IMG/VR virus record: IMGVR_UViG_3300020437_000499
Coordinates: 1-23,040 of that record
Strand: one strand, 5' to 3'
DNA from: a virus
Length of the DNA: 23,040 nt
Position 1 is the stretch's first letter. Every line of letters starts with the position of its first letter. A program made the position numbers and the translations under genes. The notes below the pieces were generated by a model that searched no databases, was not told the origin of the DNA, and saw only the letters and a program-made list of their open reading frames with translations. This document shows, piece after piece, positions 1,808 to 15,155 of the stretch.

Positions 1808-2073
1808 CTATTATATACCTCATCTAGTTTATCAGAAAATTCTTCAATCTTTTTTAATCTTACTTTGCCTTCCCAATAGATATAATCTTTCTCTGGATTT
1901 TTAGCCAGATTGTTCAGCAAAGGTTTAATCATATTGTATAGAGTATCGCATTTTTCTTGCGTCTTGTCAAGTCCAGCTGTTTTCATTACCGCTGTTTCTT
2001 TTGCTTCTATTACTGCGTCTAGTTCGTCTTCGGTAACGGCAGTAAAGCCAAAGTCAAAATCTAATTCACTCAT
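1804..2073 (-). CDS. Small acidic protein between gp43 and uvsX (89 aa)
   Basis: The protein starts MSELDFDFGFTAV and has a motif LNNLAKNPEKDYIYW in its second half followed by a helical end. Genes of this type, with a DFDFGF start and NPEKDYIYW core, are familiar between the polymerase and uvsX in marine T4-like phages; no function is known to me. A 103-residue version starting at 2115 is possible, but GGAGG ten bases upstream of the ATG at 2073, and the ATGA overlap with the gp43 stop at 2070-2073, favour the shorter form. It is coupled at its 3' end to uvsX by a second ATGA overlap. It is a candidate recombination or replication accessory by context only. Confidence 0.88.
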   Translation of the reverse strand: MSELDFDFGFTAVTEDELDAVIEAKETAVMKTAGLDKTQEKCDTLYNMIKPLLNNLAKNPEKDYIYWEGKVRLKKIEEFSDKLDEVYNR

Positions 2074-3158
2074 GAGAAAAAGTCCTCCAATGTTGCTCTC
2101 TTCTCTGTTGCCCAATCAATCTTATCTAATATAAGTTTCAAAGGCTCTAGAAACGATTTGTTAAACTGTGTTTCATAATCTATATACTCACTCATACCAA
2201 ACTCTTGAGGTAAGACATTTATTATAGATAACACATTTTGTCTCAATGGGTTTGGTTCTTTCATATAACAATACTTTATCTTTTCACCAGATTTTATAGT
2301 TTGATATTTCTTTAAAAGTTTCCTCTCTTTTATACAGTTGTTGTATATCAAAGCACCTCGAATATGTAAAGGTGTTCCTTTCATAATCTCAAAGTTTTTG
2401 AACACTGTACCAACAGTACTATCGTATTTATTTAATTCAGATACGCCTCTAGGGAAAGCTACCTCTTCAAATGGTAGAGAAGAAAACTTTTCTTTGAACT
2501 CTACAATATAAGCTTGCAAAGTCTTTTCATCTTTTGTCATGATAATATCAATAGCTTTCTTAATCGCATCACGACAAACCTGTGGAGTACTAGACTTGAT
2601 AGCTTCTATTCCCATCATCTTGAGTTTAGGTTTCTGATATCTAACACCCTCATTATCATATACGTTGAGCATGTATCTTTTCTTGGCAGTCCATATGCCT
2701 TTGTCGCATATCGTTTCTCTCTTCATGAACATCTTCTGATCAAAAGCATTCATGATATCTGCGAGTTCTTGATAAGCTTTGTCGATGAATGGTTCTATTC
2801 TATCTGTTGCAACTTTATCTAGAAAGTCTATAGGATTCTTAGGTTTAAACTTTTCTATTAGCTTGTCAAAAGTTATGTATAGTGAATCTGTATCTGATGC
2901 AACAACATAATCAATATCCTCTGTACTCAATAATTTGTTTAGATATTCGTTGATACGTGCTTCTATCCATTTGATAGATAATTGTCCAGATTTAGTAATA
3001 GCTAATGCTTGTCGTATATCATAAAATCTAAAGTATTGATTACCAATCGCACCATAAGCAGAGTTCAACTGTATCTTTTTTGCCATCTGCATGTTGTAAT
3101 ACTTAGCAACATCTTTCTCTAGCTGTTGCTTTTTCATTTCTAGTTCTGCTCTATTCAT
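2070..3158 (-). CDS. gp43: DNA polymerase gp43, C-terminal part (43B: second finger helix, palm, thumb)
   Basis: The second piece of the family B replicative polymerase, 362 aa. Motif B KKIQLNSAYGAIGN is at 27-40 (incoming nucleotide binding) and motif C ASDTDSLY at 87-94 (catalytic aspartates). The thumb follows, and the C-terminal tail LEDFFS is in the place where T4 gp43 has its clamp-binding peptide. The protein begins within the finger domain, so it cannot polymerise without the N-terminal piece. Its ATG overlaps the stop of 43A (ATGAATAG, 3151-3158), and its frame is +1 relative to 43A with an in-frame TGA immediately before the ATG. All conserved motifs remain, so it is probably a working subunit rather than debris. 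A one-base error in the sequence is the alternative. Confidence 0.93.
   Translation of the reverse strand: MNRAELEMKKQQLEKDVAKYYNMQMAKKIQLNSAYGAIGNQYFRFYDIRQALAITKSGQLSIKWIEARINEYLNKLLSTEDIDYVVASDTDSLYITFDKLIEKFKPKNPIDFLDKVATDRIEPFIDKAYQELADIMNAFDQKMFMKRETICDKGIWTAKKRYMLNVYDNEGVRYQKPKLKMMGIEAIKSSTPQVCRDAIKKAIDIIMTKDEKTLQAYIVEFKEKFSSLPFEEVAFPRGVSELNKYDSTVGTVFKNFEIMKGTPLHIRGALIYNNCIKERKLLKKYQTIKSGEKIKYCYMKEPNPLRQNVLSIINVLPQEFGMSEYIDYETQFNKSFLEPLKLILDKIDWATEKRATLEDFFS
2084..2088 (-). promoter_or_regulatory. Ribosome binding site deciding the start of the 89-aa gene
   Basis: GGAGG on the minus strand, ten bases before the ATG at 2073 and inside the end of the polymerase reading frame. It supports initiation at 2073 rather than at the upstream in-frame ATG at 2115. 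Confidence 0.7.
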
Positions 3159-4593
3159 TCAGTAACTTCTTAACTTTCTCTAGTTCTTTCTGTGCCTCAA
3201 TCATTTTCTTCTTGTAGATGACTCTATCTTCATACATAGATTGCATCATATCATTTAGAAAACCTTTCTTGTCTTTTCGAAAGTATTGTCCGTTTGCCGC
3301 CAATACTTTGTCTTTAGATGTAGATACATTCTTCTCTATAATATCATCAATGCTCACGTTTTGCAAGTCACCTTCTATGATTGTGTCAGGTGAAACATTA
3401 TACTGCATTATCAGATGAGGATACAATGAGTTCAAATCGAAAGACATAATCCATTTATGTAAGCCAACTTGTGGATCTTTTACGTAAGCACCTTCATACG
3501 CTTCGCTTTTATGTTTAGCTTTCTTCTGAGGTATCACAATGTTTTTATCAAGTAGATAGTTGTGTATCAAAACGTCCCACATTCTAACTTGTGAATGATT
3601 GTCTTCATAGTTTACTTTAGCATCATATGCGATAGCCATTGCCAACTCTATCAGTTTTAGTTTGTCTTCTATTCTTTCTACAAGTTCAACGTCTTTAATA
3701 TTATATTCTATGAACTTCTGATAGTCATTTTTGTATAGCTGGTGTAAGTTAGCAAACTCTGAGTAGTCAAGTTTCTTTTCACCGAGTTCAACATTAGATA
3801 TGTGATCTAGTCTGTATGACTCTTGTACTTGACGATTATCTTTCTTATACAAATCGATATAGTCTAAAACTTCTATGCCTTCTAGCTTGTATGTTTTAAG
3901 TGATGCTTTACCAAAAGAGTTCCACACATTAGATGACTTCTCTTTTACTATTCCCCATGGTGATAGAAGTTCTACTTTATAATCACCAAACATTCTTCGT
4001 ATACGATTGACAAGATAAGGCACATCAAAGCCCTTTACATTCCAACCTGTGACAATATCAGGATCAAGCTTTCGCCATGTTTTCAGAAATACATCTACAA
4101 GATTTTGTTCACTCTTACAATCTATGTAATATACATCATCTCTATCATTTCTAAACTCACCATTACCTATAACATAGAACTTATCTTTCATCTTTATAGT
4201 GATAGCAGTGATAGGTTGATCTGCATGTTCAGGTTCAGGAAAACCTTCTTCAGAGCCAACTTCGATATCTATATTAGCTACACGTATCTTATCAAAGTCA
4301 TAGTCATTACCATACTTTTCATTCAAGTATGTATAAGCAAACATTGTAGAGCCATAGAAACTAAAGCCTGTAACATCTTTGAACTTTTCAGTATACTCTT
4401 TACAAGCTTTGATACTGTTAAACTTCTTAGGCTTTACAGGTTGTCCTGTGATTGTTTTATATCTAGATTGTTCTCTTGTAGGTTCATAGAGAGTAGGTTT
4501 GTAAAAAACTTTTTCGTTAAATCTTTTACCATAGTCGTAGCCACGAACATACACGTAGTTACCACGAACAAAAGCGTTTGTGTAGAATCTCAT
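3151..4593 (-). CDS. gp43: DNA polymerase gp43, N-terminal part (43A: N-domain, 3'-5' exonuclease, motif A)
   Basis: The first piece of the family B replicative polymerase, 480 aa. Proofreading motifs are intact: Exo I NIDIE at 107-111, Exo II NVKGFDVPY at 185-193 and Exo III YNIKDVEL at 297-304. Polymerase motif A DLNSLYP is at 386-392. The protein ends KKLLNE in the finger domain, after a charged helix starting near EDRVIYKKK (455-463). Pieces A and B total 842 aa against 898 in T4, and the joined finger tip is not shorter than in intact relatives, so nothing is missing. The start MRFYTNAF aligns with other gp43 N-termini. No Shine-Dalgarno sequence precedes it; instead a near-consensus promoter ends 6 bases before the ATG, suggesting a leaderless transcript. 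Confidence 0.94.
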   Translation of the reverse strand: MRFYTNAFVRGNYVYVRGYDYGKRFNEKVFYKPTLYEPTREQSRYKTITGQPVKPKKFNSIKACKEYTEKFKDVTGFSFYGSTMFAYTYLNEKYGNDYDFDKIRVANIDIEVGSEEGFPEPEHADQPITAITIKMKDKFYVIGNGEFRNDRDDVYYIDCKSEQNLVDVFLKTWRKLDPDIVTGWNVKGFDVPYLVNRIRRMFGDYKVELLSPWGIVKEKSSNVWNSFGKASLKTYKLEGIEVLDYIDLYKKDNRQVQESYRLDHISNVELGEKKLDYSEFANLHQLYKNDYQKFIEYNIKDVELVERIEDKLKLIELAMAIAYDAKVNYEDNHSQVRMWDVLIHNYLLDKNIVIPQKKAKHKSEAYEGAYVKDPQVGLHKWIMSFDLNSLYPHLIMQYNVSPDTIIEGDLQNVSIDDIIEKNVSTSKDKVLAANGQYFRKDKKGFLNDMMQSMYEDRVIYKKKMIEAQKELEKVKKLLNE

Positions 4594-4973: not shown

Positions 4974-7900
4974 CTATTCAAATGCTGAAGTTGAAGGTGT
5001 GAAATTTGCACTATAGATTCCTTGTCCTTTAACAACTCTTAGATTACTAAAGTAACCTTGAAAATTATCAGAAGTTGTATCAGGACTACCGAAACCTACA
5101 ACTCCAGTTGGATATGTTCTTGTATTACCTGTAGCACTACCAACTGGTTTACCATTAACAAATACTGTCAGAGTTCCACTAACTCTTTGTACACAAACAT
5201 GATGCCACTTAAAAGGAGGAAAAAGAGTATTATAGTTAGGTATTGATAAATCATTACCTACTCCTCTTCTTCTTACTGTGAATCTATTTGATCCACCTGG
5301 ATCACCACTTCCAGCTTTAAAGAAACCCAGTCCTCCGCTAACAGCCGTGTTGATGTGTCTATGCGATGTACCAGATGCAACAACTTCATCATGATAAATG
5401 TAATACTCAATTCCAAAATCATCACTACTAGCAAAAGTAAAAAGTCCATCTTGTGCAGAAGTTGTAAATGATGCGTAAGTAGTTGGCCCAGCTCCACCGT
5501 CCATGTATATTGATCCACCACCAGTATAAGGTGCAAAAGTGCTTACAGAAGTTCCAGAACCAAGTGCTACAGTTATATCAGAGGCAGCCGTTCCTGACAT
5601 AGTGCTTGCATTAGAACTATTATAAACACCTACCACTCTAACATTAGATCCTGTTACAGTAGTAGCTGGATCAGTTGAGTTAGTTGTAGTGAGTTGTATA
5701 AATTCAGGAACAAAAGGATAACGTGCTAAACCTTTACTAACTCTAAAATCGTGCATATATCCAGCGAACATTCTATTCGTATTGTCAGCATATCTTGATG
5801 CTAGTCTTAAATTTGTATTAGTAATATCAATTGATGTGGTTGAAGTTCCTTGAAGTACGCCATTTCTATAAAGATAATGAACTCCATCTTGTCTTTGTAA
5901 AACAACATGGCTCCACTCATTATCAGGCACAACTGGATTGAATGTAATTAAATCTGATGATCCTCCTTGTGGACCAATTGCTTTATCTTTTGCCACCGAG
6001 ATACCAGCACCAGAAGATGGGTGAGCAGAAGCAAAGAAACCTTTGTAAGTTGCGTCACCACCAGTAGGATATACCCATGCTTCGTGGGTATGATCTTCAG
6101 TGCTTATAATAGGATTTGGTGTATCGATATAATCTCCAGTACCATCAAAATACACAGTGGCTTCTGAAAAATGTTGTTGTGCTGATGATGAGGCAGTATC
6201 ACCAACTATAGCAAGTCTATCTACACTCACATCTGATTTTGCAAGAAGAGTTTGAGATGCATCAAAAATTTTGAAGTCTGTGAATGGTAGATGAAGAACA
6301 GTTCCTGATATAGCTGTAAGAGGTTCAGTTGGTGGAGTAAAAGCACTTGTATACACGGCAGTGCCTTTTACTATTCGAAGATCACTCCAATAAGCCCTTG
6401 CTTGTCCTGCACCACCACTGGCGGCATCTTTTCCTAAAGTTAAAGTTTGTAAACTAAAATTATATGTTTCTGCACCACTATAAACTTCGTTTCCATCTAG
6501 ATACATTTTCATAGTGCCACTACTTCTAACCCATGCACAATGATGCCAACTGAATGGAACCATAGTTGCTGAGTTACTTTGATTGGTAGTTCCTGTTCCT
6601 GGTTTATAATAAGCCATTTTATTAGGATTTAAGTAAAGAGCAAGTCTACCAGCTGTACTTCCTGTGGCTCCAGGAGTACATGTATCCATAATCATCTGAT
6701 GAACTGACATAGCTTCTGGAAAAACCCATGCTTCTACAGTAAAATCTCCAGTCCCAAATGCAAAATCAGAAGATGATGCAACTGTAAAATAATCATTACC
6801 TCCTTGAGGACGTAGACGAACAGAACCACCGTCTGTTGCAGTTGTATACTTATCATCTCTATCAAAAGGAGTAAATGGGTGACAACCAGCAGTTCCACCT
6901 ATTGTTCCTGGATTCCTAAATCTAAAATCTAAGTGTGGTTTCTGAAATCCATGAAAGATATTAGCTGATTCGTGTGGTGTACTCTTTGCTGTAGGCACAG
7001 GAATAAATTGATTAGTAGATGTATATAAGGCGGCTTTTGTAAACTTTACATCATACATATAACCATTGAAATAATTTCCTAAAGAGCCCATGTTGGCGGC
7101 ATCAGCCTCTGTACCGAAAGCCCAACCATTGTTATTAAAACTTATTCTAGTATTACCTGTATCTCTAAACACTCTTCTTCCATCTATCCAAAGTGTTATA
7201 ACATCAGCGTTTGAAGCTCCATCTGTTTCATGCATTATAACATAGTGTTGCCACTCATATTGTTTTCCATAGGTTGCACCATAATCACTTCCTACTTGAG
7301 AGGCATTCCAATATGTTCTATTAGTTCCAAAAATAAAATCGTTTGCACCATTTGCTAGATTATTAGAGCCTACAAAATAGTCTGAATCTGTTGGATCATC
7401 TTCATTATAGATCCACATCTCTAATGTAAAATTATCGCATTTTCCGCCAGTATCGTTGATGTCTGCTATAGTATCATCTCTTAGATAATCACCAGAGCCG
7501 TCAAAATATACCGAATATCCGTTATTACGATAAGGACTAAAAGCCAACTGTTCAAGATCCCCGTATGCAGTTAGAATATGTCCACTTGAAGATTTATCAA
7601 ACCAATTATTATTATCGCCATAAAAATAAGGGCTGTTAGTTGATGGAGTAGTCGATACCGAACCGTTATTCGTTATAGTAACACTGTTATCACTACTATC
7701 TGTAATTGCACCTTGTAAAGTTAATAATTTTGTATGTGAAGCTGTAATACTTGTATTGACATTATTTGTCGATGGATATGTACCGCCAGTTTTTGTAAGC
7801 ACACCACTTGGTGGTGTAAAGTTACCAGTGTAAACAGCCGTACCAACAACAATTCTAAAGTTTGAATAGTCTGCATGATTGTAGCCTGTAGATATAACAT

Positions 7901-8963
7901 CACCACCGTTAGCAATATGAAAATTAGTTCCAACACCTGCTAGATTAGTACTGCTTGAGAAACTACCTATAGATGTACCATTTTGATACATTGTTATAGT
8001 TGTACCATTTCTAACAACAGCTAAATGATCCCATTGATTATAATTAAGTGTACCACCATTTACTGAAGGAAAAGTTAAACCATGATGTGCTATAGTATAA
8101 CTGGTAGTATGATTTGGATGTCCAGCAAATAGTGCGATTGCACCTGAGGCGTATGAATTATAATTATTCCAGACTACATTATGGTTTGTTGCTCTACTAC
8201 GTAAGTAAACCCAAGACTCAATAGTAAAATCACCAGTTCCTAATGCTACATCTGAATTAGGTAGTGTCAAATATTGACTAGAACCATTAAAAGCTATTGA
8301 TTTTTGTGCAGTTGTAAGCACGCCAGTTTTTGCTTTTAATAAAATAGCAGTTTCGGCAGTATTTTTTCCGCTATAATATGCAGTGGTGATAGTGATAGTT
8401 CCTGTACCAGTATTTACACCATCAGTTACACTTAATGTAACTGTAGCATCTCCTTCATATTTTGTAGTACCATCGAATACTAATCGTACATGATTATTAC
8501 TTGCAGTATGTGTTATTGCAACATTGCCTGTGGTAGCAATACCTGAGTTAGCAAAAGTTACAGTGGTTGGTGTTCCTTCTGGCTCTGTGACAGTGTATGT
8601 TAAATCTACAGTAAGATTTGTAGCTGTCGGAGTAGCAGTTGTTGATGATAGAGTAATTGATGGTGTAGTATTTACCATTGATATTTTATACCAACCAGAA
8701 CCATTTGACATATACAATGTACCAGTCGCTGTTGTATATGCTAAACTTCCTGCTGGAGATATGGGCGAAAATGGTAACACTGAAGAGTTTGCATAAGTTG
8801 ATACACCACTTTGTCCTTGTACACCAATTCCTGGTTCTACTATAGAAGTATTTGCATCTGAATCTTTTACTATCAAATTACCACTATCTGCACCTAAGAT
8901 AACTCTACTTGTACCTGTGCCTAGTGTAATACTATTTGCTGTGTAAGATAACTTTTGTACCAT
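4974..8963 (-). CDS. Giant five-module LamG (concanavalin A-like) surface protein, copy 1 (1329 aa)
   Basis: The protein has an N-terminal region (1-95) with the pattern GTLYMSNGSGWYKI typical of phage fibre or structural proteins, then a cadherin/Ig-like region (about 98-196, ending VTDGVNTGTGTITITTAY). Five LamG-like lectin modules follow at about 223-385, 483-650, 715-880, 934-1090 and 1150-1325. Several modules open with an FDGxGDYL-like strand and GTGDFTxEAWVY-like motif and close with a LRIVKGTAVYTxxFTPP-like strand. LamG modules bind glycans or proteins, so a virion adhesin or tail-associated fibre is the best inference. No signal peptide or transmembrane helix is seen. It is a tandem paralogue of the gene immediately upstream (27-base gap) and lies in the cassette driven by the TATAAATA promoter at 13687, consistent with late expression. 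The host receptor is unknown. Confidence 0.9.
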   Translation of the reverse strand: MVQKLSYTANSITLGTGTSRVILGADSGNLIVKDSDANTSIVEPGIGVQGQSGVSTYANSSVLPFSPISPAGSLAYTTATGTLYMSNGSGWYKISMVNTTPSITLSSTTATPTATNLTVDLTYTVTEPEGTPTTVTFANSGIATTGNVAITHTASNNHVRLVFDGTTKYEGDATVTLSVTDGVNTGTGTITITTAYYSGKNTAETAILLKAKTGVLTTAQKSIAFNGSSQYLTLPNSDVALGTGDFTIESWVYLRSRATNHNVVWNNYNSYASGAIALFAGHPNHTTSYTIAHHGLTFPSVNGGTLNYNQWDHLAVVRNGTTITMYQNGTSIGSFSSSTNLAGVGTNFHIANGGDVISTGYNHADYSNFRIVVGTAVYTGNFTPPSGVLTKTGGTYPSTNNVNTSITASHTKLLTLQGAITDSSDNSVTITNNGSVSTTPSTNSPYFYGDNNNWFDKSSSGHILTAYGDLEQLAFSPYRNNGYSVYFDGSGDYLRDDTIADINDTGGKCDNFTLEMWIYNEDDPTDSDYFVGSNNLANGANDFIFGTNRTYWNASQVGSDYGATYGKQYEWQHYVIMHETDGASNADVITLWIDGRRVFRDTGNTRISFNNNGWAFGTEADAANMGSLGNYFNGYMYDVKFTKAALYTSTNQFIPVPTAKSTPHESANIFHGFQKPHLDFRFRNPGTIGGTAGCHPFTPFDRDDKYTTATDGGSVRLRPQGGNDYFTVASSSDFAFGTGDFTVEAWVFPEAMSVHQMIMDTCTPGATGSTAGRLALYLNPNKMAYYKPGTGTTNQSNSATMVPFSWHHCAWVRSSGTMKMYLDGNEVYSGAETYNFSLQTLTLGKDAASGGAGQARAYWSDLRIVKGTAVYTSAFTPPTEPLTAISGTVLHLPFTDFKIFDASQTLLAKSDVSVDRLAIVGDTASSSAQQHFSEATVYFDGTGDYIDTPNPIISTEDHTHEAWVYPTGGDATYKGFFASAHPSSGAGISVAKDKAIGPQGGSSDLITFNPVVPDNEWSHVVLQRQDGVHYLYRNGVLQGTSTTSIDITNTNLRLASRYADNTNRMFAGYMHDFRVSKGLARYPFVPEFIQLTTTNSTDPATTVTGSNVRVVGVYNSSNASTMSGTAASDITVALGSGTSVSTFAPYTGGGSIYMDGGAGPTTYASFTTSAQDGLFTFASSDDFGIEYYIYHDEVVASGTSHRHINTAVSGGLGFFKAGSGDPGGSNRFTVRRRGVGNDLSIPNYNTLFPPFKWHHVCVQRVSGTLTVFVNGKPVGSATGNTRTYPTGVVGFGSPDTTSDNFQGYFSNLRVVKGQGIYSANFTPSTSAFE
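7722..7856 (-). repeat. Segment shared with the paralogous LamG gene (copy at 10365-10499)
   Basis: Residues 370-414 of copy 1 match residues 846-890 of copy 2 at 39 of 45 positions by direct comparison (RIVVGTAVYTG, then LTKTGGTYPST, then ASHTKLL). This is much closer than the surrounding parts. It joins the end of module 1 in one protein but the end of module 3 in the other, so the match is out of register and suggests module shuffling or gene conversion. Confidence 0.75.
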
Positions 8964-8990: not shown

Positions 8991-11900
8991 TTATACAAAT
9001 CTTCTTGTTGGTGGGGTAAATGTTTTATCGTATAGTGCCTGTCCTTTGATAATTCTAACATTTGAAATATATCCGTTGAACATATGATGTTCTGAACCAC
9101 TTCTCACACTACCACCTATTCTTACAGCGGTTGAAGTAATATCACCAGTATAAGCAGTTTCACCAACATTAGCTCCATTCATATAAGCTTGCATTTTTCC
9201 AGTAGAATCTCTATGAACGTAAGCCATGTGATACCACTTATGTATTACTGGTTTGATAGTACTTTGTCCATAATACCGCCATTCATTAGAATATCCAGTT
9301 TCTCCCCATGAGCCGGCATGATATATATGAAACTGATCTCTATGTGACGCATAGTAGAAACCTGGTGAGTAAGAGGTGTCTCCTCCAAAATTAACATGAT
9401 TTCGACTATTACCTGAACCAGTAGGTAAGTCATTATGATATACCCAATATTCTACAGTCCAATCTCCAGTGCCTAAAGCAGAAGCTGTCGTTAATGATAA
9501 GTAATCGCCAGTACCATCAAAGTAAACAGATTTCATTCCAGGAGCAGGGCCAAAGTCAGACACAACTGCGTTTCCATGTGCTGTAATTGAAGTGTTGTTA
9601 GAACTTCCGTCTGTTATCGTAGAAGAACCTGCCGTACCAGTATGACAGGTTAATAATAGTGTATTGCTTGCACTTGATACTGTGGGTGTTGTACCACTAG
9701 GTGTTGTCATACCAGAGTTAGTGGTTGTAAGTGTCACTGGCTCTGAAATGTAAGGATATTGTGCATGATCAAAAATAATTCTAGTATTCTCTAAATTTCC
9801 TACAAAATCAGCAGTACCACCGGCGGCGGCATCATTACCTATACCTAAATTAAATAGTGCTAAATCATCAGTTAAAGGATATCTTGGATTTGGGTGTGAG
9901 GTTACTAAATCTACTGGTGTTCCGTCAAGATACATACGCAATACACCATTAATTCTATACCAAACTGCATGATACCATGTGTTTAATGAAATGTTTCCAG
10001 AACTCATTTGAACTACACTAGTTCCTGGAGTGAAATAACCTAGCCTCTCAACACCACCAGAAGCAACAAACATGAATGCTATTCTACCTGTCTGACTTCC
10101 AGAAACACCACGAGTTTGAGTATCGAACAACACTACCTGCCCACTAGCTGTCTTATAGAAAAATGTTTCAATCGTAAAGTCTCTTGTTCCAAAATTACCA
10201 AATGAAGTTCTTCTATAAGCATCTATGTAAGCGTATTGTGTATCAAACCTAATTGTAGGTTCTCCAGTAAACTTTGATACGTTTAGTGCAGAGGTAATAC
10301 CTGCTGAAATTTCAGTAGTTTTACTTTGAGTTAAATCTTTTATTAAGTTATCACTAAAGTTTAATAAAAGCTTTGTATGAGAGGCACTAAAACTTGTATT
10401 TACATTAGTTGTTGATGGATATGTACCACCAGTTTTAGTCAGTGTTTGACTTGGTGGTGTAAACTCACCAGTATAAACGGCAGTGCCTACAACTATTCTT
10501 AAATCTGCAAAATGTCCCTCACCAGGTAATTCACTTGTAACTGAGCCTGCTCCAAACTCTATTTCACCTGCCGTTGAAGTTGTATAATCATATGTATCAG
10601 AAGAAGATCCTTTTTCAATACCATTTGCATATATTTTCATAGTGCTACCACTCTTTACAACTGCAATATGTGTCCACGTATGATTATATAACACAGCACT
10701 ACTAGTGGTAATTGAATTTGTAGTTGAACGATACCATTTGAGATATCCATTACTAGCATCTTTGTACACTCTCCAACCACCAGTGGTAGCATAGCGTTTA
10801 CTTAAAAGTGCTTCCCAAAAAGATGTATGATCATCTGGATTATACCAAAATTCTATTGTAAAATCACCTGAACCTAATTGTATTTCATTTGATGCTTTAT
10901 CTGTTGTTTCTATATTTCCGGCGGCGGCATTATTAAGAACAAATGATCCACCATCTTCTGATTTTCCGGCAGTTCTAGCAAAAGGACTAAAAGGTGAATT
11001 GTGAACATCGCCATTGTAAGTAATAGTATGTTTATTAGTAGACATATCTCTATTATAAGGAGTGTTGAAAGCAAGTAGTGAAGTATTAGTGATTGCAGTA
11101 AGTCTTGCTGGAGGTGTGAACTCACTTGTATATACGGCAGTGCCTTTGACAACTCTTAAATCTGCAATGTGTCCACTAAAGTTTCTACTAGTGTCAAGAT
11201 TTGATTTTCCGGTATACATTGCGAATTGTTGATTAAAATTTGTATTGTAAGTTCCACTATAACCTTGCTCACCATTAACAAATATTTTTAAAGTACCTGA
11301 TGAACGAGCCCAAGCAATATGAGTCCACTGTCTTTCAGGCATACCAATAGAAGAAGTTGCTTGACTACTACTATTCCATAATGCAGGACGACTATTTGTA
11401 TTTGTTAGAAAGAAAAGACAAGAAGGAGTAGCGAAACCTCCAAAAATAGTTTGATCGTCTGAAACACCACCTGAACCAACATTCTCAGGAAATACCCATG
11501 CTTCTACTGTAAAATCTCCTGTACCAAAAACAAAACTCGCATCAGAAGGATACGTTACATAATTTGAAGAGCCATCACCGATAAAACCTGAATAACCACC
11601 AGTTCTGTAAGGACTCAAAGAACTATTATGACTTTGTGCTACTGTGCCGTTAAATGATAAAGTATGTGCTGAGTCTGAACTATCTCTTACAAACTTATTA
11701 TTATATGCTGTGCCAGCTGGTGCAAAAGGACTTAATTCATTGTAAGAACCTCCATATGATGTTAGAGTATGTCCTACAGAAGAATGATCTGTTAATGAAC
11801 CTTGTGCAGTTAAAAGAACTGTATTAGTTATTGCAGTGAGAGGAGAAGTTGGTGGTGTAAAATTACTAGAATATACAACTGAACCTTTGACAATACGCAA

Positions 11901-13034
11901 GTTACTTATGTAACCATGAAAGTCATGAGATATACCTGTATAGTCCATAAATCTACCTATTCTCGCCGTTCTATTCAAAGACGTATTATATGTACCAGAA
12001 AAACTTCCTGTACCTACCGATGTACCATTCTTATATAATGTCACATTATTACTAGAGTCCATTGTGCAAGCAAAATGAAACCACTCATTTAAATTAATTG
12101 TAGTGCTTGCGTTTATACTTTGATCTTGTCCACTTCCAGAACCACCACCTGCGGACCAATACATTCCAATTTCACCTGATTTAAATCTAAAACTATATTC
12201 TCTTTGTTGGGCAGTAGAGGCACTTCCTGAACCCTTAGAGAAAAAATGAGATTGAGTTTGATGAGAAGTTGGATATAACCATGCTTCTACTGTAAAGGCT
12301 CCTCCTAATATTTGCAAATCTGAAGAAGCTGGTATTGTTATCACATCTGCATCACCATTAGGAAGATAAAGAGATTGTTGTTTTACATCTGTTACTCCTG
12401 GTGCATTTTCTGCCACTAGAGTAAGTGCTTCACGTTCATTACGTAAGAAAACATACGCTGTATTAATTGTAATAGTTCCTACACCCGTATTCACACCATC
12501 TGTTACAGTTGCGGTAATTGTAGCATCTGTTAAATTAGTAGTACCATCAAATACTACTCGTATATTATTGTTTGAAGTTGTGTGAGTAATTGTAGCTACG
12601 TTTGTATCAGCAATACCAGAGTTAGCTAAAGCAACAGTGACAGGAGTGCCTTCTGGTTCTACTGTCGTATAGTTTACATCTAATGTAAGATTAGTACCAA
12701 TTGATGCAGTTGTTTTGTTTAGAGTTATTGATGGACTTGTATTCACTAATGATATTCTATACCAGCCACCACCTGATTTCAAAAACAACTCATTAGTTGC
12801 AGACGCAAAATACAAAGCTCCGTTACTTATACCTGTGGGAGGTAATGGTAGTGCCGCCTTGTTTGCTACAACTGTAACGGGAGAGGCATTTGTAACACCT
12901 AATCCTGGACGAACAGTTGTTGTTGAGCCGCCAGATTTGATTAGTAAATCTCCACTGTCAGCACTTAACTCAACTTTTCCAGAACTCAAACCAACGACTA
13001 CATTGTTAGCGAATGTTTTGTTTCTGTAAACCAT
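8991..13034 (-). CDS. Giant five-module LamG (concanavalin A-like) surface protein, copy 2 (1347 aa)
   Basis: Same architecture as the downstream paralogue. The fibre-type N-terminal region is at 1-95 (ELFLKSGGGWYRI at 82-94), followed by a cadherin/Ig-like region at about 98-194 with TVEPEGTPVTV and VTDGVNTGVGTITI. Five LamG modules sit at about 221-395, 482-642, 696-862, 926-1090 and 1168-1345. The N-terminal 195 residues of the two proteins are clearly homologous, while the modules have diverged. A shared 45-residue segment lies at 846-890. A glycan-binding virion adhesin is the likely role (family knowledge plus inference). The start is one base after the muramidase stop and no ribosome site stands out, so translation probably depends on re-initiation from that gene. 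Confidence 0.9.
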   Translation of the reverse strand: MVYRNKTFANNVVVGLSSGKVELSADSGDLLIKSGGSTTTVRPGLGVTNASPVTVVANKAALPLPPTGISNGALYFASATNELFLKSGGGWYRISLVNTSPSITLNKTTASIGTNLTLDVNYTTVEPEGTPVTVALANSGIADTNVATITHTTSNNNIRVVFDGTTNLTDATITATVTDGVNTGVGTITINTAYVFLRNEREALTLVAENAPGVTDVKQQSLYLPNGDADVITIPASSDLQILGGAFTVEAWLYPTSHQTQSHFFSKGSGSASTAQQREYSFRFKSGEIGMYWSAGGGSGSGQDQSINASTTINLNEWFHFACTMDSSNNVTLYKNGTSVGTGSFSGTYNTSLNRTARIGRFMDYTGISHDFHGYISNLRIVKGSVVYSSNFTPPTSPLTAITNTVLLTAQGSLTDHSSVGHTLTSYGGSYNELSPFAPAGTAYNNKFVRDSSDSAHTLSFNGTVAQSHNSSLSPYRTGGYSGFIGDGSSNYVTYPSDASFVFGTGDFTVEAWVFPENVGSGGVSDDQTIFGGFATPSCLFFLTNTNSRPALWNSSSQATSSIGMPERQWTHIAWARSSGTLKIFVNGEQGYSGTYNTNFNQQFAMYTGKSNLDTSRNFSGHIADLRVVKGTAVYTSEFTPPARLTAITNTSLLAFNTPYNRDMSTNKHTITYNGDVHNSPFSPFARTAGKSEDGGSFVLNNAAAGNIETTDKASNEIQLGSGDFTIEFWYNPDDHTSFWEALLSKRYATTGGWRVYKDASNGYLKWYRSTTNSITTSSAVLYNHTWTHIAVVKSGSTMKIYANGIEKGSSSDTYDYTTSTAGEIEFGAGSVTSELPGEGHFADLRIVVGTAVYTGEFTPPSQTLTKTGGTYPSTTNVNTSFSASHTKLLLNFSDNLIKDLTQSKTTEISAGITSALNVSKFTGEPTIRFDTQYAYIDAYRRTSFGNFGTRDFTIETFFYKTASGQVVLFDTQTRGVSGSQTGRIAFMFVASGGVERLGYFTPGTSVVQMSSGNISLNTWYHAVWYRINGVLRMYLDGTPVDLVTSHPNPRYPLTDDLALFNLGIGNDAAAGGTADFVGNLENTRIIFDHAQYPYISEPVTLTTTNSGMTTPSGTTPTVSSASNTLLLTCHTGTAGSSTITDGSSNNTSITAHGNAVVSDFGPAPGMKSVYFDGTGDYLSLTTASALGTGDWTVEYWVYHNDLPTGSGNSRNHVNFGGDTSYSPGFYYASHRDQFHIYHAGSWGETGYSNEWRYYGQSTIKPVIHKWYHMAYVHRDSTGKMQAYMNGANVGETAYTGDITSTAVRIGGSVRSGSEHHMFNGYISNVRIIKGQALYDKTFTPPTRRFV
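10365..10499 (-). repeat. Segment shared with the paralogous LamG gene (copy at 7722-7856)
   Basis: Partner of the segment in copy 1: residues 846-890 here, 39 of 45 identical. At the DNA level both copies share runs such as gatggatatgtacc and acttggtggtgtaaa (plus strand), making this a possible crossover site between the two adjacent genes. Confidence 0.75.
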
Positions 13035-13035
13035 T

Positions 13036-13641
13036 TTAGATCATCTTTAAAGCTGTTTCCGTAGTCTCTGTAACTCTTCTTGTCCAACCTCTACCGAAAG
13101 TTTTAAAAGTAGAAAGTCTTTCATAATATCCTTGTCGTGCTTCTTGATATGATTTGATACCATGCTCTACACCATGTTCTTTTATCCAAGCATCAACTTG
13201 TTTTAGTGTATTAGGTCCAACTGCTCCGTCAGGAGTTGCACCAACCATTTTTTGTAGATAGATGCCTGCCCTTTTTGTTCCAGCATTAACGCCAAAATCA
13301 AAGACGCATAAATCTAAACCTTTTGGTAAGCTATCACACTTGCAACGTCCCCAATAGTTCTTTTCATATATTGGTGCAACGTCAGCAACTTTTAAATCTT
13401 TCATATCTTTTTTACCACCCCATTCTTCGTATACTCTTTTAGTAACACCGAGGTTAGTTTCTCCACCAGGATCTTTTGGGTGATTTACATATCCACCTTC
13501 ATGATGTAGAATTATCTTTAAACATTTATCATAATTTGATTTCGCCATACCATTGTCCTTTTTCGCTTTTGTTTCTGTCTTAGGTTTAGTAACAGTTTTA
13601 GTCTGCTTCTTTAAACCTGTCTTCTTAAATAGTCCAAACAT
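13036..13641 (-). CDS. GH108-type muramidase (endolysin or virion lysozyme)
   Basis: Peptidoglycan hydrolase of glycoside hydrolase family 108, cleaving the glycan backbone. The family signature is clear: HHEGGYVNHPKDPGGETN at 46-63 (catalytic Glu48 expected) followed by LGVT. A C-terminal peptidoglycan-binding-like part contains GAVGPNTL. The first 31 residues are an unusual Lys/Thr-rich extension (KKTGLKKQTKTVTKPK) rather than a signal peptide. GGAGAGG four bases before the ATG at 13641 supports this start. An internal ATG at 13548 (MAKSNYD) has its own AAGGA seven bases upstream, so a shorter form lacking the extension may also be made. It is first in the late cassette, behind the TATAAATA promoter, and is followed at one base by the LamG gene. 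Lysis or cell-wall penetration at entry are both possible. Confidence 0.92.
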   Translation of the reverse strand: MFGLFKKTGLKKQTKTVTKPKTETKAKKDNGMAKSNYDKCLKIILHHEGGYVNHPKDPGGETNLGVTKRVYEEWGGKKDMKDLKVADVAPIYEKNYWGRCKCDSLPKGLDLCVFDFGVNAGTKRAGIYLQKMVGATPDGAVGPNTLKQVDAWIKEHGVEHGIKSYQEARQGYYERLSTFKTFGRGWTRRVTETTETALKMI

Positions 13642-13652
13642 TTAACCTCTCC

Positions 13653-13690
13653 AAAAAAAATAAGGGCTGAATTTTACTTCAACCCTTATT
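13653..13690 (-). terminator. Rho-independent terminator behind hsp20
   Basis: On the minus strand, a 13-bp stem (AATAAGGGTTGAA paired with TTCAGCCCTTATT, one G-U) with a six-base loop is followed by a run of eight T including the last stem bases. It would stop transcripts coming from hsp20 before the muramidase gene. Its upstream arm overlaps the TATAAATA promoter at 13687-13694. Confidence 0.88.
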
Positions 13691-13694
13691 TATA
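13687..13694 (-). promoter_or_regulatory. T4-type late promoter for the muramidase/LamG cassette
   Basis: An exact TATAAATA on the minus strand, the T4 late consensus used with gp55-modified polymerase and the gp45 clamp. It is 46 bases upstream of the muramidase ATG. The expected start (about 13681) falls inside the upstream arm of the terminator, so late transcripts would lack most of that arm and escape termination. Confidence 0.75.
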
Positions 13695-13717
13695 ATTGCG
13701 AAAAAGACTAATAAGTA

Positions 13718-14146
13718 TTATTTGATTTTAATAACTTTAGGCTTTTTATGCTCTGGTACAATTCTCTCTAACTGGATTTCTAACAATCCATTTTTGAGTT
13801 CTGCACCTTTTACTTCGATATCGTCAGCAATAGTAAATTTACGTGTGAATTTTTTCTGCGAGATACCTCTGTGAAGTACTTCAGCGTTTTCGACTTTATC
13901 ATCGAATACTGATTTAACTGTAATGGTGCCGTCTTCTACAACGACTTCTATATCCTCTTTTGAGAATCCTGCTAAAGCCATTTCAATTGTAAACTCATAT
14001 TCATCATGCTTTACAATATTATATGGAGGGAAACCTGTTGAGGTGTGCATATTATGGGCGTGATCCCATAATCTATCAAACACTCTATCAAAACCTACAG
14101 CGTAGGGAGTGAATTTATTAATGTCAAATGTGGTAAGGTTATTCAT
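13718..14146 (-). CDS. hsp20: Hsp20 / small heat shock protein
   Basis: A 142-aa alpha-crystallin-type holdase that binds unfolding proteins without ATP. A short N-terminal arm (FDINKFTPYAVGFDRVFDRL, resembling IbpA) is followed by the crystallin domain from about 42 to 132, including EMALAGFSKEDIEV (55-68), HRGISQKKFTRKF (92-104) and the NGLLEI motif (118-123). A C-terminal IKI-type anchor completes it (VIKIK). Hsp20 genes are characteristic of marine T4-like phages, where a role in virion assembly or host stress is assumed but not shown. GGAG precedes the ATG. It forms a single-gene unit with its own dual promoter upstream and a terminator downstream. No key element is missing. Confidence 0.95.
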   Translation of the reverse strand: MNNLTTFDINKFTPYAVGFDRVFDRLWDHAHNMHTSTGFPPYNIVKHDEYEFTIEMALAGFSKEDIEVVVEDGTITVKSVFDDKVENAEVLHRGISQKKFTRKFTIADDIEVKGAELKNGLLEIQLERIVPEHKKPKVIKIK

Positions 14147-14215
14147 TGCTATTCTCCTTTATTAAGCTAGAATATTAAAATTAAGAAGTACCCTCTATTA
14201 GGCATACTTCAACTG

Positions 14216-14223
14216 TATTTATA
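14216..14223 (-). promoter_or_regulatory. T4-type late promoter upstream of hsp20
   Basis: An exact TATAAATA on the minus strand, 69 bases before the hsp20 ATG. Its first three bases coincide with the last three of the TATTAT -10 box of the sigma70-type promoter in the same gap, so early and late polymerases would compete for the same DNA. Confidence 0.72.
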
Positions 14224-14249
14224 ATAACAAAAATTTACACTTTTGTCAA
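14221..14249 (-). promoter_or_regulatory. Sigma70-type promoter upstream of hsp20
   Basis: On the minus strand: TTGACA (14249-14244), a 17-base spacer, then TATTAT (14226-14221) with extended -10 TG. The -35 begins two bases after the MazG-like stop codon. The hexamers, spacing and TG are the same as in the gp43 promoter. Confidence 0.8.
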
Positions 14250-14250
14250 G

Positions 14251-14748
14251 TCACTTTCCAGTAACAGCACTTTCATCATCAAATAAACTTAATTGTGCTA
14301 GTTGATCTCTATCGATGTTAGGCGATGAGTTCTCTTCTATCTTTTTTATTTTTGCTAATACTTCTTGATGGTATACTGTATCATACATATTTGGTGGTTT
14401 ATAGTTAGGACCTTTCATGACTTTACCATCTTCTCTATAGATTGGTTTACCATCTTCACCTAACTTTGACATATTACTTCTGTGAACTTCATCGAAACAA
14501 TAATCTAGTTCTATACCCATGGCGGCACCCATACCATAAACTACATAGAGTAAATCAGTAAGAGCATCAGCAATCTCTATCATATTCTTTCTTTCAACAC
14601 CAAGATAGAGTTCTCTTAGTTCTTCTTCTATAAGTTCTAATCTAAGTTGCAAAGTCTTTTCATCTAACATAGTAGGTTTTTCTGCTACGTTTTGTCCAAA
14701 CGATCTCATGAAATCTTCTACTTTGTCAAAGTTAGTGGTATATCTCAT
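14251..14748 (-). CDS. MazG-like NTP pyrophosphohydrolase with a clamp-binding-type tail
   Basis: All-alpha NTP pyrophosphatase family, which hydrolyses nucleoside triphosphates to monophosphates; phage members are thought to adjust nucleotide pools or host (p)ppGpp. Numbering from the ATG at 14760, the acidic metal-binding helices are visible as ELIEEELRELY (42-52) and EIADALTDLLYVVYG (62-76). The tail is unusual: QLAQLSLFDD, with QLSLF at 156-160, is the consensus shape of a bacterial sliding-clamp binding peptide. The start at 14748 (MRYTTNF) is chosen because GGGAGG lies just upstream; the ATG at 14760, overlapping the regA stop by one base, would add four residues. It is the last gene of the gp45-gp44-gp62-regA operon, so it is made alongside the clamp. 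Confidence 0.85.
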   Translation of the reverse strand: MRYTTNFDKVEDFMRSFGQNVAEKPTMLDEKTLQLRLELIEEELRELYLGVERKNMIEIADALTDLLYVVYGMGAAMGIELDYCFDEVHRSNMSKLGEDGKPIYREDGKVMKGPNYKPPNMYDTVYHQEVLAKIKKIEENSSPNIDRDQLAQLSLFDDESAVTGK

Positions 14749-14752
14749 TGAT

Positions 14753-14758
14753 CCTCCC
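14753..14758 (-). promoter_or_regulatory. Ribosome binding site favouring the internal start of the MazG-like gene
   Basis: GGGAGG four bases before the ATG at 14748. It would lie inside the coding region if the ATG at 14760 were used. Confidence 0.55.
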
Positions 14759-14759
14759 A

Positions 14760-15155
14760 TTATCTTTTCTTCCCTATATTATATTTTGCCGCCAAGTTCC
14801 ACTCGTCTTTTTCTTTATGTGGTAAAACTTTAATCTGTGAAAGAGGTGACACTGGCTCTTTCGTTTTTTCAGGATTTACTAATTCAACTAAACCCCATTC
14901 TGCTAATAAATTAGCTATAGAATTTCTACGTGATATATCATCTTCTGTAAAATTGCTTGGTTTTCCGTCCATAGAAAAAAGTTCTTTGAAGTGTGTGATA
15001 TAATACTTTCCTTGCTTATGAAGAATATGACAACTCTGGAACAATGTCTTATCTTTTCTACTAGCTACACCTATGCGTGTAAGTGTTTCTCTTATCTTTA
15101 AGAAGTCTTCGTCTTCTTTCAACTTTACTTCTACTAAACTACTTATTTCAATCAT
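14760..15155 (-). CDS. regA: RegA translational repressor
   Basis: RNA-binding protein that blocks ribosome loading on early T4 mRNAs, including those for clamp and clamp-loader proteins. The 131-aa sequence (T4 RegA is 122) follows the family closely: EDFLKIRETLTRIGVA (16-31), KDKTLFQSCHILHKQGKYYI (34-53) and HFKELFSMDGK (55-65), with DEWNLAAKYNIG (117-128) near the end. The extra length is mainly at the N-terminus, VEVKLKEDED. It is coupled to gp62 by an ATGA overlap (15152-15155). Its position directly after 62 matches T4, but the usual next gene, 43, lies about 10 kb away. Autoregulation is expected from the family; no specific RNA operator could be assigned here. Confidence 0.96.
   Translation of the reverse strand: MIEISSLVEVKLKEDEDFLKIRETLTRIGVASRKDKTLFQSCHILHKQGKYYITHFKELFSMDGKPSNFTEDDISRRNSIANLLAEWGLVELVNPEKTKEPVSPLSQIKVLPHKEKDEWNLAAKYNIGKKR

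Follow-up and report, generated by a model that had tools for sequence, protein, structure and literature searches.

A predicted T4-type late promoter overlapping the arm of a terminator hairpin before the muramidase gene of a marine T4-like phage

The window analysed here is the whole 23,040-nucleotide stretch at positions 1 to 23,040 of IMG/VR virus record IMGVR_UViG_3300020437_000499. It derives from a marine T4-like myovirus whose named relatives, by similarity, are Kyanoviridae. On the minus strand, an hsp20 gene is followed by a muramidase gene, and the gap between the two holds both a terminator hairpin and a candidate late promoter. The features of this region are the following:

14216-14249, minus strand: hsp20 promoter, TTGACA, 17 nt, TATTAT (14249-14221), overlapping a second TATAAATA (14223-14216); read from the sequence, conserved in all relatives compared
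13718-14146, minus strand: hsp20, the gene ended by the hairpin; phrog_432, E 2e-43
13687-13694, minus strand: TATAAATA, candidate T4-type late promoter box; from the sequence, invariant in relatives, marks gene starts in relative G001
13678-13691, minus strand: 5' arm of the terminator hairpin, AAATAAGGGTTGAA; terminator scan, fold, covariation
13680-13682, minus strand: predicted late transcription start, from T4 late promoter spacing (PMC2988020)
13658-13671, minus strand: 3' arm of the terminator hairpin, TTCAGCCCTTATTT; terminator scan, fold, covariation
13653-13660, minus strand: run of eight T (U-run of an intrinsic terminator), the first three T in the stem; from the sequence
13646-13652, minus strand: GGAGAGG, muramidase ribosome-binding site, outside the hairpin; from the sequence, GGAG conserved in relatives
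13036-13641, minus strand: muramidase/endolysin gene behind the late box; phrog_315 endolysin, E 8e-53
8991-13034, minus strand: first large downstream gene, putatively LamG-like (a label from the preliminary description); an ORF without another strong promoter-like site directly upstream
4974-8963, minus strand: second large downstream gene of the same putative kind; an ORF

The TATAAATA box at 13694-13687 (minus strand) can be read directly from the sequence of the hsp20-muramidase gap, where it begins 23 nt past the hsp20 stop codon. Its last five bases are also the first five of the 5' arm of the hairpin. A preliminary description of this DNA had proposed that a late box overlaps the terminator arm, and these five shared bases (13691-13687, minus strand) bear it out; the arm, which it had placed at 13690-13678, is indeed present but starts one base earlier, at 13691. 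The stem consists of 14 perfect base pairs, four of them G-C (13691-13678 with 13671-13658, minus strand), and a GTAAAA loop separates the two arms. The muramidase ATG follows at 13641 on the same strand, 3' of GGAGAGG.

The hairpin folds with -18.1 kcal/mol (z = -4.9); all 200 shuffled sequences folded less stably. In the terminator scan it ranked first among 6 terminator-like sites in 5 kb (shuffles, 2.0 +/- 1.5). A stable, GC-containing stem with a U-run immediately 3' marks an intrinsic terminator, and both are present here (14 bp, eight T). The promoter scan listed no sigma-70-type site between hsp20 and the muramidase gene. The 23-kb window contains just two exact copies of TATAAATA; both lie on the coding strand, with a gene directly 3' of each. 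Separately, an Rfam scan of 13000-14800 returned an L20-leader match alone, which was rejected (E 0.54, well under the gathering score).

We wondered whether TATAAATA is a late promoter. The 146,609-bp genome of the relative G001 encodes homologues of gp55 (57% identity to HTVC008M gp55), gp33, and gp45. In this genome, 15 of 31 TATAAATA copies lie 20-70 nt before gene starts, as against 61 of 1279 permuted 8-mers (Fisher p ~1e-11; distances run from box to ATG of ORFs of at least 100 aa). The hallmark of a T4-type late promoter, a box about one helical turn from the start in a phage with gp55, is thus found here, with gp55 taken from G001 because the window is a fragment without a visible gp55. 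We regard TATAAATA as a credible late promoter in these phages. The bases directly 3' of the 13694-13687 box, AGGGTTGAAG, begin with GGG and include 5 G in 10; T4 late promoters show a preponderance of A/T just downstream of the box, which is not a rule (PMC2988020).

In T4, late transcription begins roughly one helical turn 3' of the box (PMC2988020). The +1 position is therefore predicted near 13681, inside the 5' arm, in line with the start of about 13681 given in the preliminary description. RNAs beginning at 13682, 13681, or 13680 would keep 5, 4, or 3 bp of the stem, and they fold with -1.8 to -0.8 kcal/mol. The further proposal that upstream RNAs span the whole hairpin, whereas local late RNAs lack most of the first arm, agrees with the 3-5 bp left on folding. 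A late box overlapping the 5' strand of a hairpin, so that the late RNA lacks that strand, is the arrangement of T4 gene e and I-TevI and is present at 13694-13678. Neither kind of RNA has its ribosome-binding site within the hairpin, so the two are expected to differ in termination, not translation. From these features we infer late initiation at the 13694-13687 box, termination at the U-run, and escape of the late RNA.

We consider it likely that these 42 bases are an intrinsic terminator fused to a T4-type late promoter, an element that would sort RNAs by where they start. Polymerase coming from hsp20 or from farther upstream, at any time, would copy both arms; the hairpin would form ahead of the U-run, and transcription would end. 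Late in infection, gp55-RNA polymerase together with gp33 and the sliding clamp would open TATAAATA and start within the 5' arm. The resulting RNA, lacking 9-11 of the 14 arm bases, would form no hairpin and would extend into the muramidase gene and, probably, both large genes beyond it. The muramidase gene would be kept off upstream transcripts and be expressed only from its own late promoter. The output would be transcriptional, since the ribosome-binding site is outside the hairpin.

The first large gene (8991-13034) is probably in the same late transcript as the muramidase gene and the second (4974-8963) possibly so, because no other good promoter was seen upstream of them. A TATAACTA, one mismatch from the box, lies just upstream of the second large gene, at 8995. 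Two other features of the coding regions deserve mention. The muramidase gene begins (13641-13548, minus strand) with a lysine-rich N-terminal extension of 31 residues ahead of an internal ATG (MAKSNYDK), the ATG at which most muramidase relatives outside the clade begin, and two starts are possible. Farther along (2070-4593, minus strand), a gp43-like DNA polymerase is encoded by two overlapping ORFs of 480 aa (3151-4593) and 362 aa (2070-3158), whereas that of HTVC008M is one gene of 2478 nt.

The preliminary description had cast the element as an "early-stop, late-go" switch. This label is only approximately right. As hsp20 has its own late box, its late RNAs carry the full hairpin too, and late RNAs from upstream should also stop; the element would therefore sort RNAs by origin. 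It should separate them by place of start, with timing coming from the late promoter only. The hsp20 promoter is itself composite (14249-14185, minus strand): its TATTAT -10 and the late box TATAAATA have common bases, and a hairpin (14210-14185, minus strand) starts exactly at the predicted late start of this box and is conserved in the clade like the composite promoter.

Searches of IMG/VR with hsp20, the muramidase, and MazG yielded a clade with the same gene order. Conservation in relatives was a check that the preliminary description had itself put forward, and box and hairpin were never apart at the hsp20-muramidase junction: they are fused in 11 of 11 relatives examined. We aligned the junctions of the window and ten relatives (ten distinct rows in total). 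Box, stem, U-run, and SD keep a constant register in this alignment; the loop length and the flanks vary. The stem cells are 100% paired in the 10 distinct sequences. At one stem position both partners differ, with A-U in five rows and U-A in the other five, and another position is either G-U or A-U. Because the relatives are close, this single double change amounts to modest covariation. The TAT of the box, three bases outside the stem, is invariant in all relatives aligned. No homologous junction with box and hairpin apart was found among the relatives compared; hsp20 of more distant phages precedes other genes, so there is no separated junction to compare. Three distant muramidase relatives (L136, L140, and L143) carry AATAAATA beside a hairpin before the gene, with an off-consensus box and a weak T-run.

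Fusions of the same kind were found elsewhere. In 851 kb of contigs selected because they carry gp13 (neck protein), irrespective of any fused element, 9 of 87 TATAAATA copies were fused to a terminator arm, compared with 12 of 6897 for 55 permuted 8-mers (Fisher p ~1e-12). Most of these fusions are not independent events, because they represent one conserved site directly before gp13, TATAAATACCCCTAGGAAACTAGGGGTATTTTTTTATG, which has covarying stem pairs (in rows drawn from pattern hits). Across 76 gp13 loci, box and hairpin are fused in 11; other loci have a weaker hairpin without a U-run. At L408, L409, L417, L410, L413, and L415, a strong hairpin followed by a U-run immediately precedes gp13 and contains (A/G)CTAAATA in its loop; the Aeh1 late consensus resembles this motif (PMC2988020). 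The 3' arm of the gp13 versions includes AGGGG just 5' of the ATG, and translation could therefore also be blocked there. Further matches to the fusion precede homing-endonuclease-like genes (phrog_447 and phrog_3339). The TATAAATA-fused element before gp13 is absent from the cultured phages P-SSM2, S-SM2, S-CAM1, S-CAM3, S-CAM9, P-TIM68, Bellamy, Sf-FS3, and Melnitz.

Over all viral contigs, the TAT-prefixed (TATAAATA) terminator pattern was found in 34 stretches, roughly one in three of which belong to the focal clade, versus 28 for the permuted prefix ATT and 79 for TTA. Since this is no excess over permuted prefixes, scattered matches in unrelated contigs were not counted as support. Outside the focal clade, 6 of 16 TAT-prefixed matches lie within 60 nt of a gene start, versus 8 of 84 permuted ones. 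None of the 121 TATAAATA copies in seven cultured T4-like genomes, T4 included, is fused to a hairpin with a U-run; dropping the U-run condition leaves one site in these genomes, T4 gene e (identified by sequence). As an observation apart, six loci (L251, L300, L302, L310, L313, and L320) carry a near-identical TATAAATACCCTCAAATATGAGGGTATTTTT directly before different small genes starting with MKKIILL, and this sequence resembles a repeated promoter-terminator cassette.

The occurrence of the same kind of fusion before gp13 in other marine T4-like contigs counts for a fused switch, whereas the GGG after the box, the closeness of the relatives, the late box of hsp20, and the lack of a collection-wide excess count against it. 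Could box and hairpin simply be compact neighbours? Late promoters are A/T-rich, as are terminators whose 5' arm is rich in A, so their overlap might be unselected and late escape a by-product. Terminator arms beginning with TATAAATA are no commoner than permuted controls collection-wide, and the relatives compared are close, both as this explanation would have it. It also gains from the late boxes that occur beside but outside terminators in the same genomes: G001 boxes are mostly ordinary, two sit separately after a terminator, and only the muramidase box is fused; HTVC008M, Mosig, and G006 likewise have boxes after terminators and no fused ones. Such late promoters (G001 118622, Mosig 106683) insulate and relaunch at a gene boundary as the element here would, but there the hairpin precedes a separate box and the two have zero bases in common. 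However, box, stem, and register stay fused in every one of the 11 relatives though loop and flanks vary, and a second conserved fusion exists at gp13. Moreover, late RNAs would be terminated if the box stood 10-40 nt upstream of the hairpin, and a search of four genomes showed no such arrangement within 60 nt. We therefore think an unselected overlap unlikely.

Known systems provide a second alternative. T4 gene e, I-TevI, segB, and Aeh1 mobE each have a late promoter within the 5' strand of an RNA hairpin, and this hairpin sequesters the ribosome-binding site (PMC3014915, PMC2988022). There, as proposed here, upstream RNAs fold the hairpin and late RNAs lack its 5' strand. In switches of the gene e / I-TevI type, the longer early RNAs extend through the gene but are translated poorly. 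The hairpin on upstream RNAs might accordingly block the muramidase ribosome-binding site and leave transcription running. The promoter-in-hairpin geometry is that of T4 gene e, whose product is, like the muramidase, a cell-wall hydrolase (PMC3014915), and AGGGG in the 3' arm of the gp13 versions points the same way. Yet gene e and I-TevI hide the ribosome-binding site, whereas here GGAGAGG (13652-13646) and the ATG (13641) are exposed beyond the stem, 3' of a run of eight T such as terminators typically have, so that termination is expected. A translational switch at the muramidase gene is thus quite improbable. Least probable is that the box is unused, a chance A/T-rich sequence in a plain terminator with the muramidase gene served by read-through or another promoter: the GGG directly 3' of the box and a late start that is predicted only would allow it, but the box is invariant even at bases unneeded for pairing, TATAAATA marks gene starts genome-wide in G001, and the hsp20-muramidase gap has no listed sigma-70-type site, which would leave this lysis gene behind a strong terminator with no promoter.

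The fused terminator and late promoter, the reading that we favour, also has counterparts among the composite promoter-terminator cassettes of T4-like phages called PeSL, which were reportedly described by Arbiol in 2010 and Comeau in 2014. PeSL promoters are early and of the sigma-70 type. Both PeSL and the element here place a promoter and a stem-loop terminator in one short intergenic unit; they differ in that the promoter here is a late box with its predicted start inside the 5' arm, and the scan of the hsp20-muramidase gap lists no site of the sigma-70 type. The PeSL of T4-like phages join an early promoter and a stem-loop terminator in one element (PMC4503421). A composite of this kind is seen behind hsp20 in distant phages (L015, L016, L018-L022, and L080, also S-PM2 and P-SSM2), where the loop of the hsp20 terminator has TTGACA with TATAAT ~17 nt on. 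Upstream of seg43, Aeromonas phage 25 has a hairpin (PMC2988022) that, like the one here, is very stable and stands immediately 5' of an exposed ribosome-binding site, but the search used here found no fused TATAAATA-hairpin in the phage 25 genome. The element would combine gene e / I-TevI logic with a PeSL-type terminator, a fresh variation on a device familiar from phage T4.

If this is true, a single element of ~40 bp allows a T4-like phage both to insulate a late lysis gene and to launch it, with no regulatory protein required apart from the late transcription machinery itself. The design would be compact, a terminator whose hairpin can form only in RNAs begun elsewhere; it would extend the logic of T4 gene e from translation to transcription termination and would explain how late genes can stand directly behind early genes on the same strand. 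Marine T4-like phages may even have evolved late promoters repeatedly in the arms, and in some lineages perhaps the loops, of terminator-like hairpins at module boundaries (muramidase, gp13, and homing-endonuclease-like genes), a generalisation that we hold tentatively, at slightly below even chances. If so, the repeated cases would belong together as self-escaping terminator-promoters, a class of elements separating transcripts according to start site.
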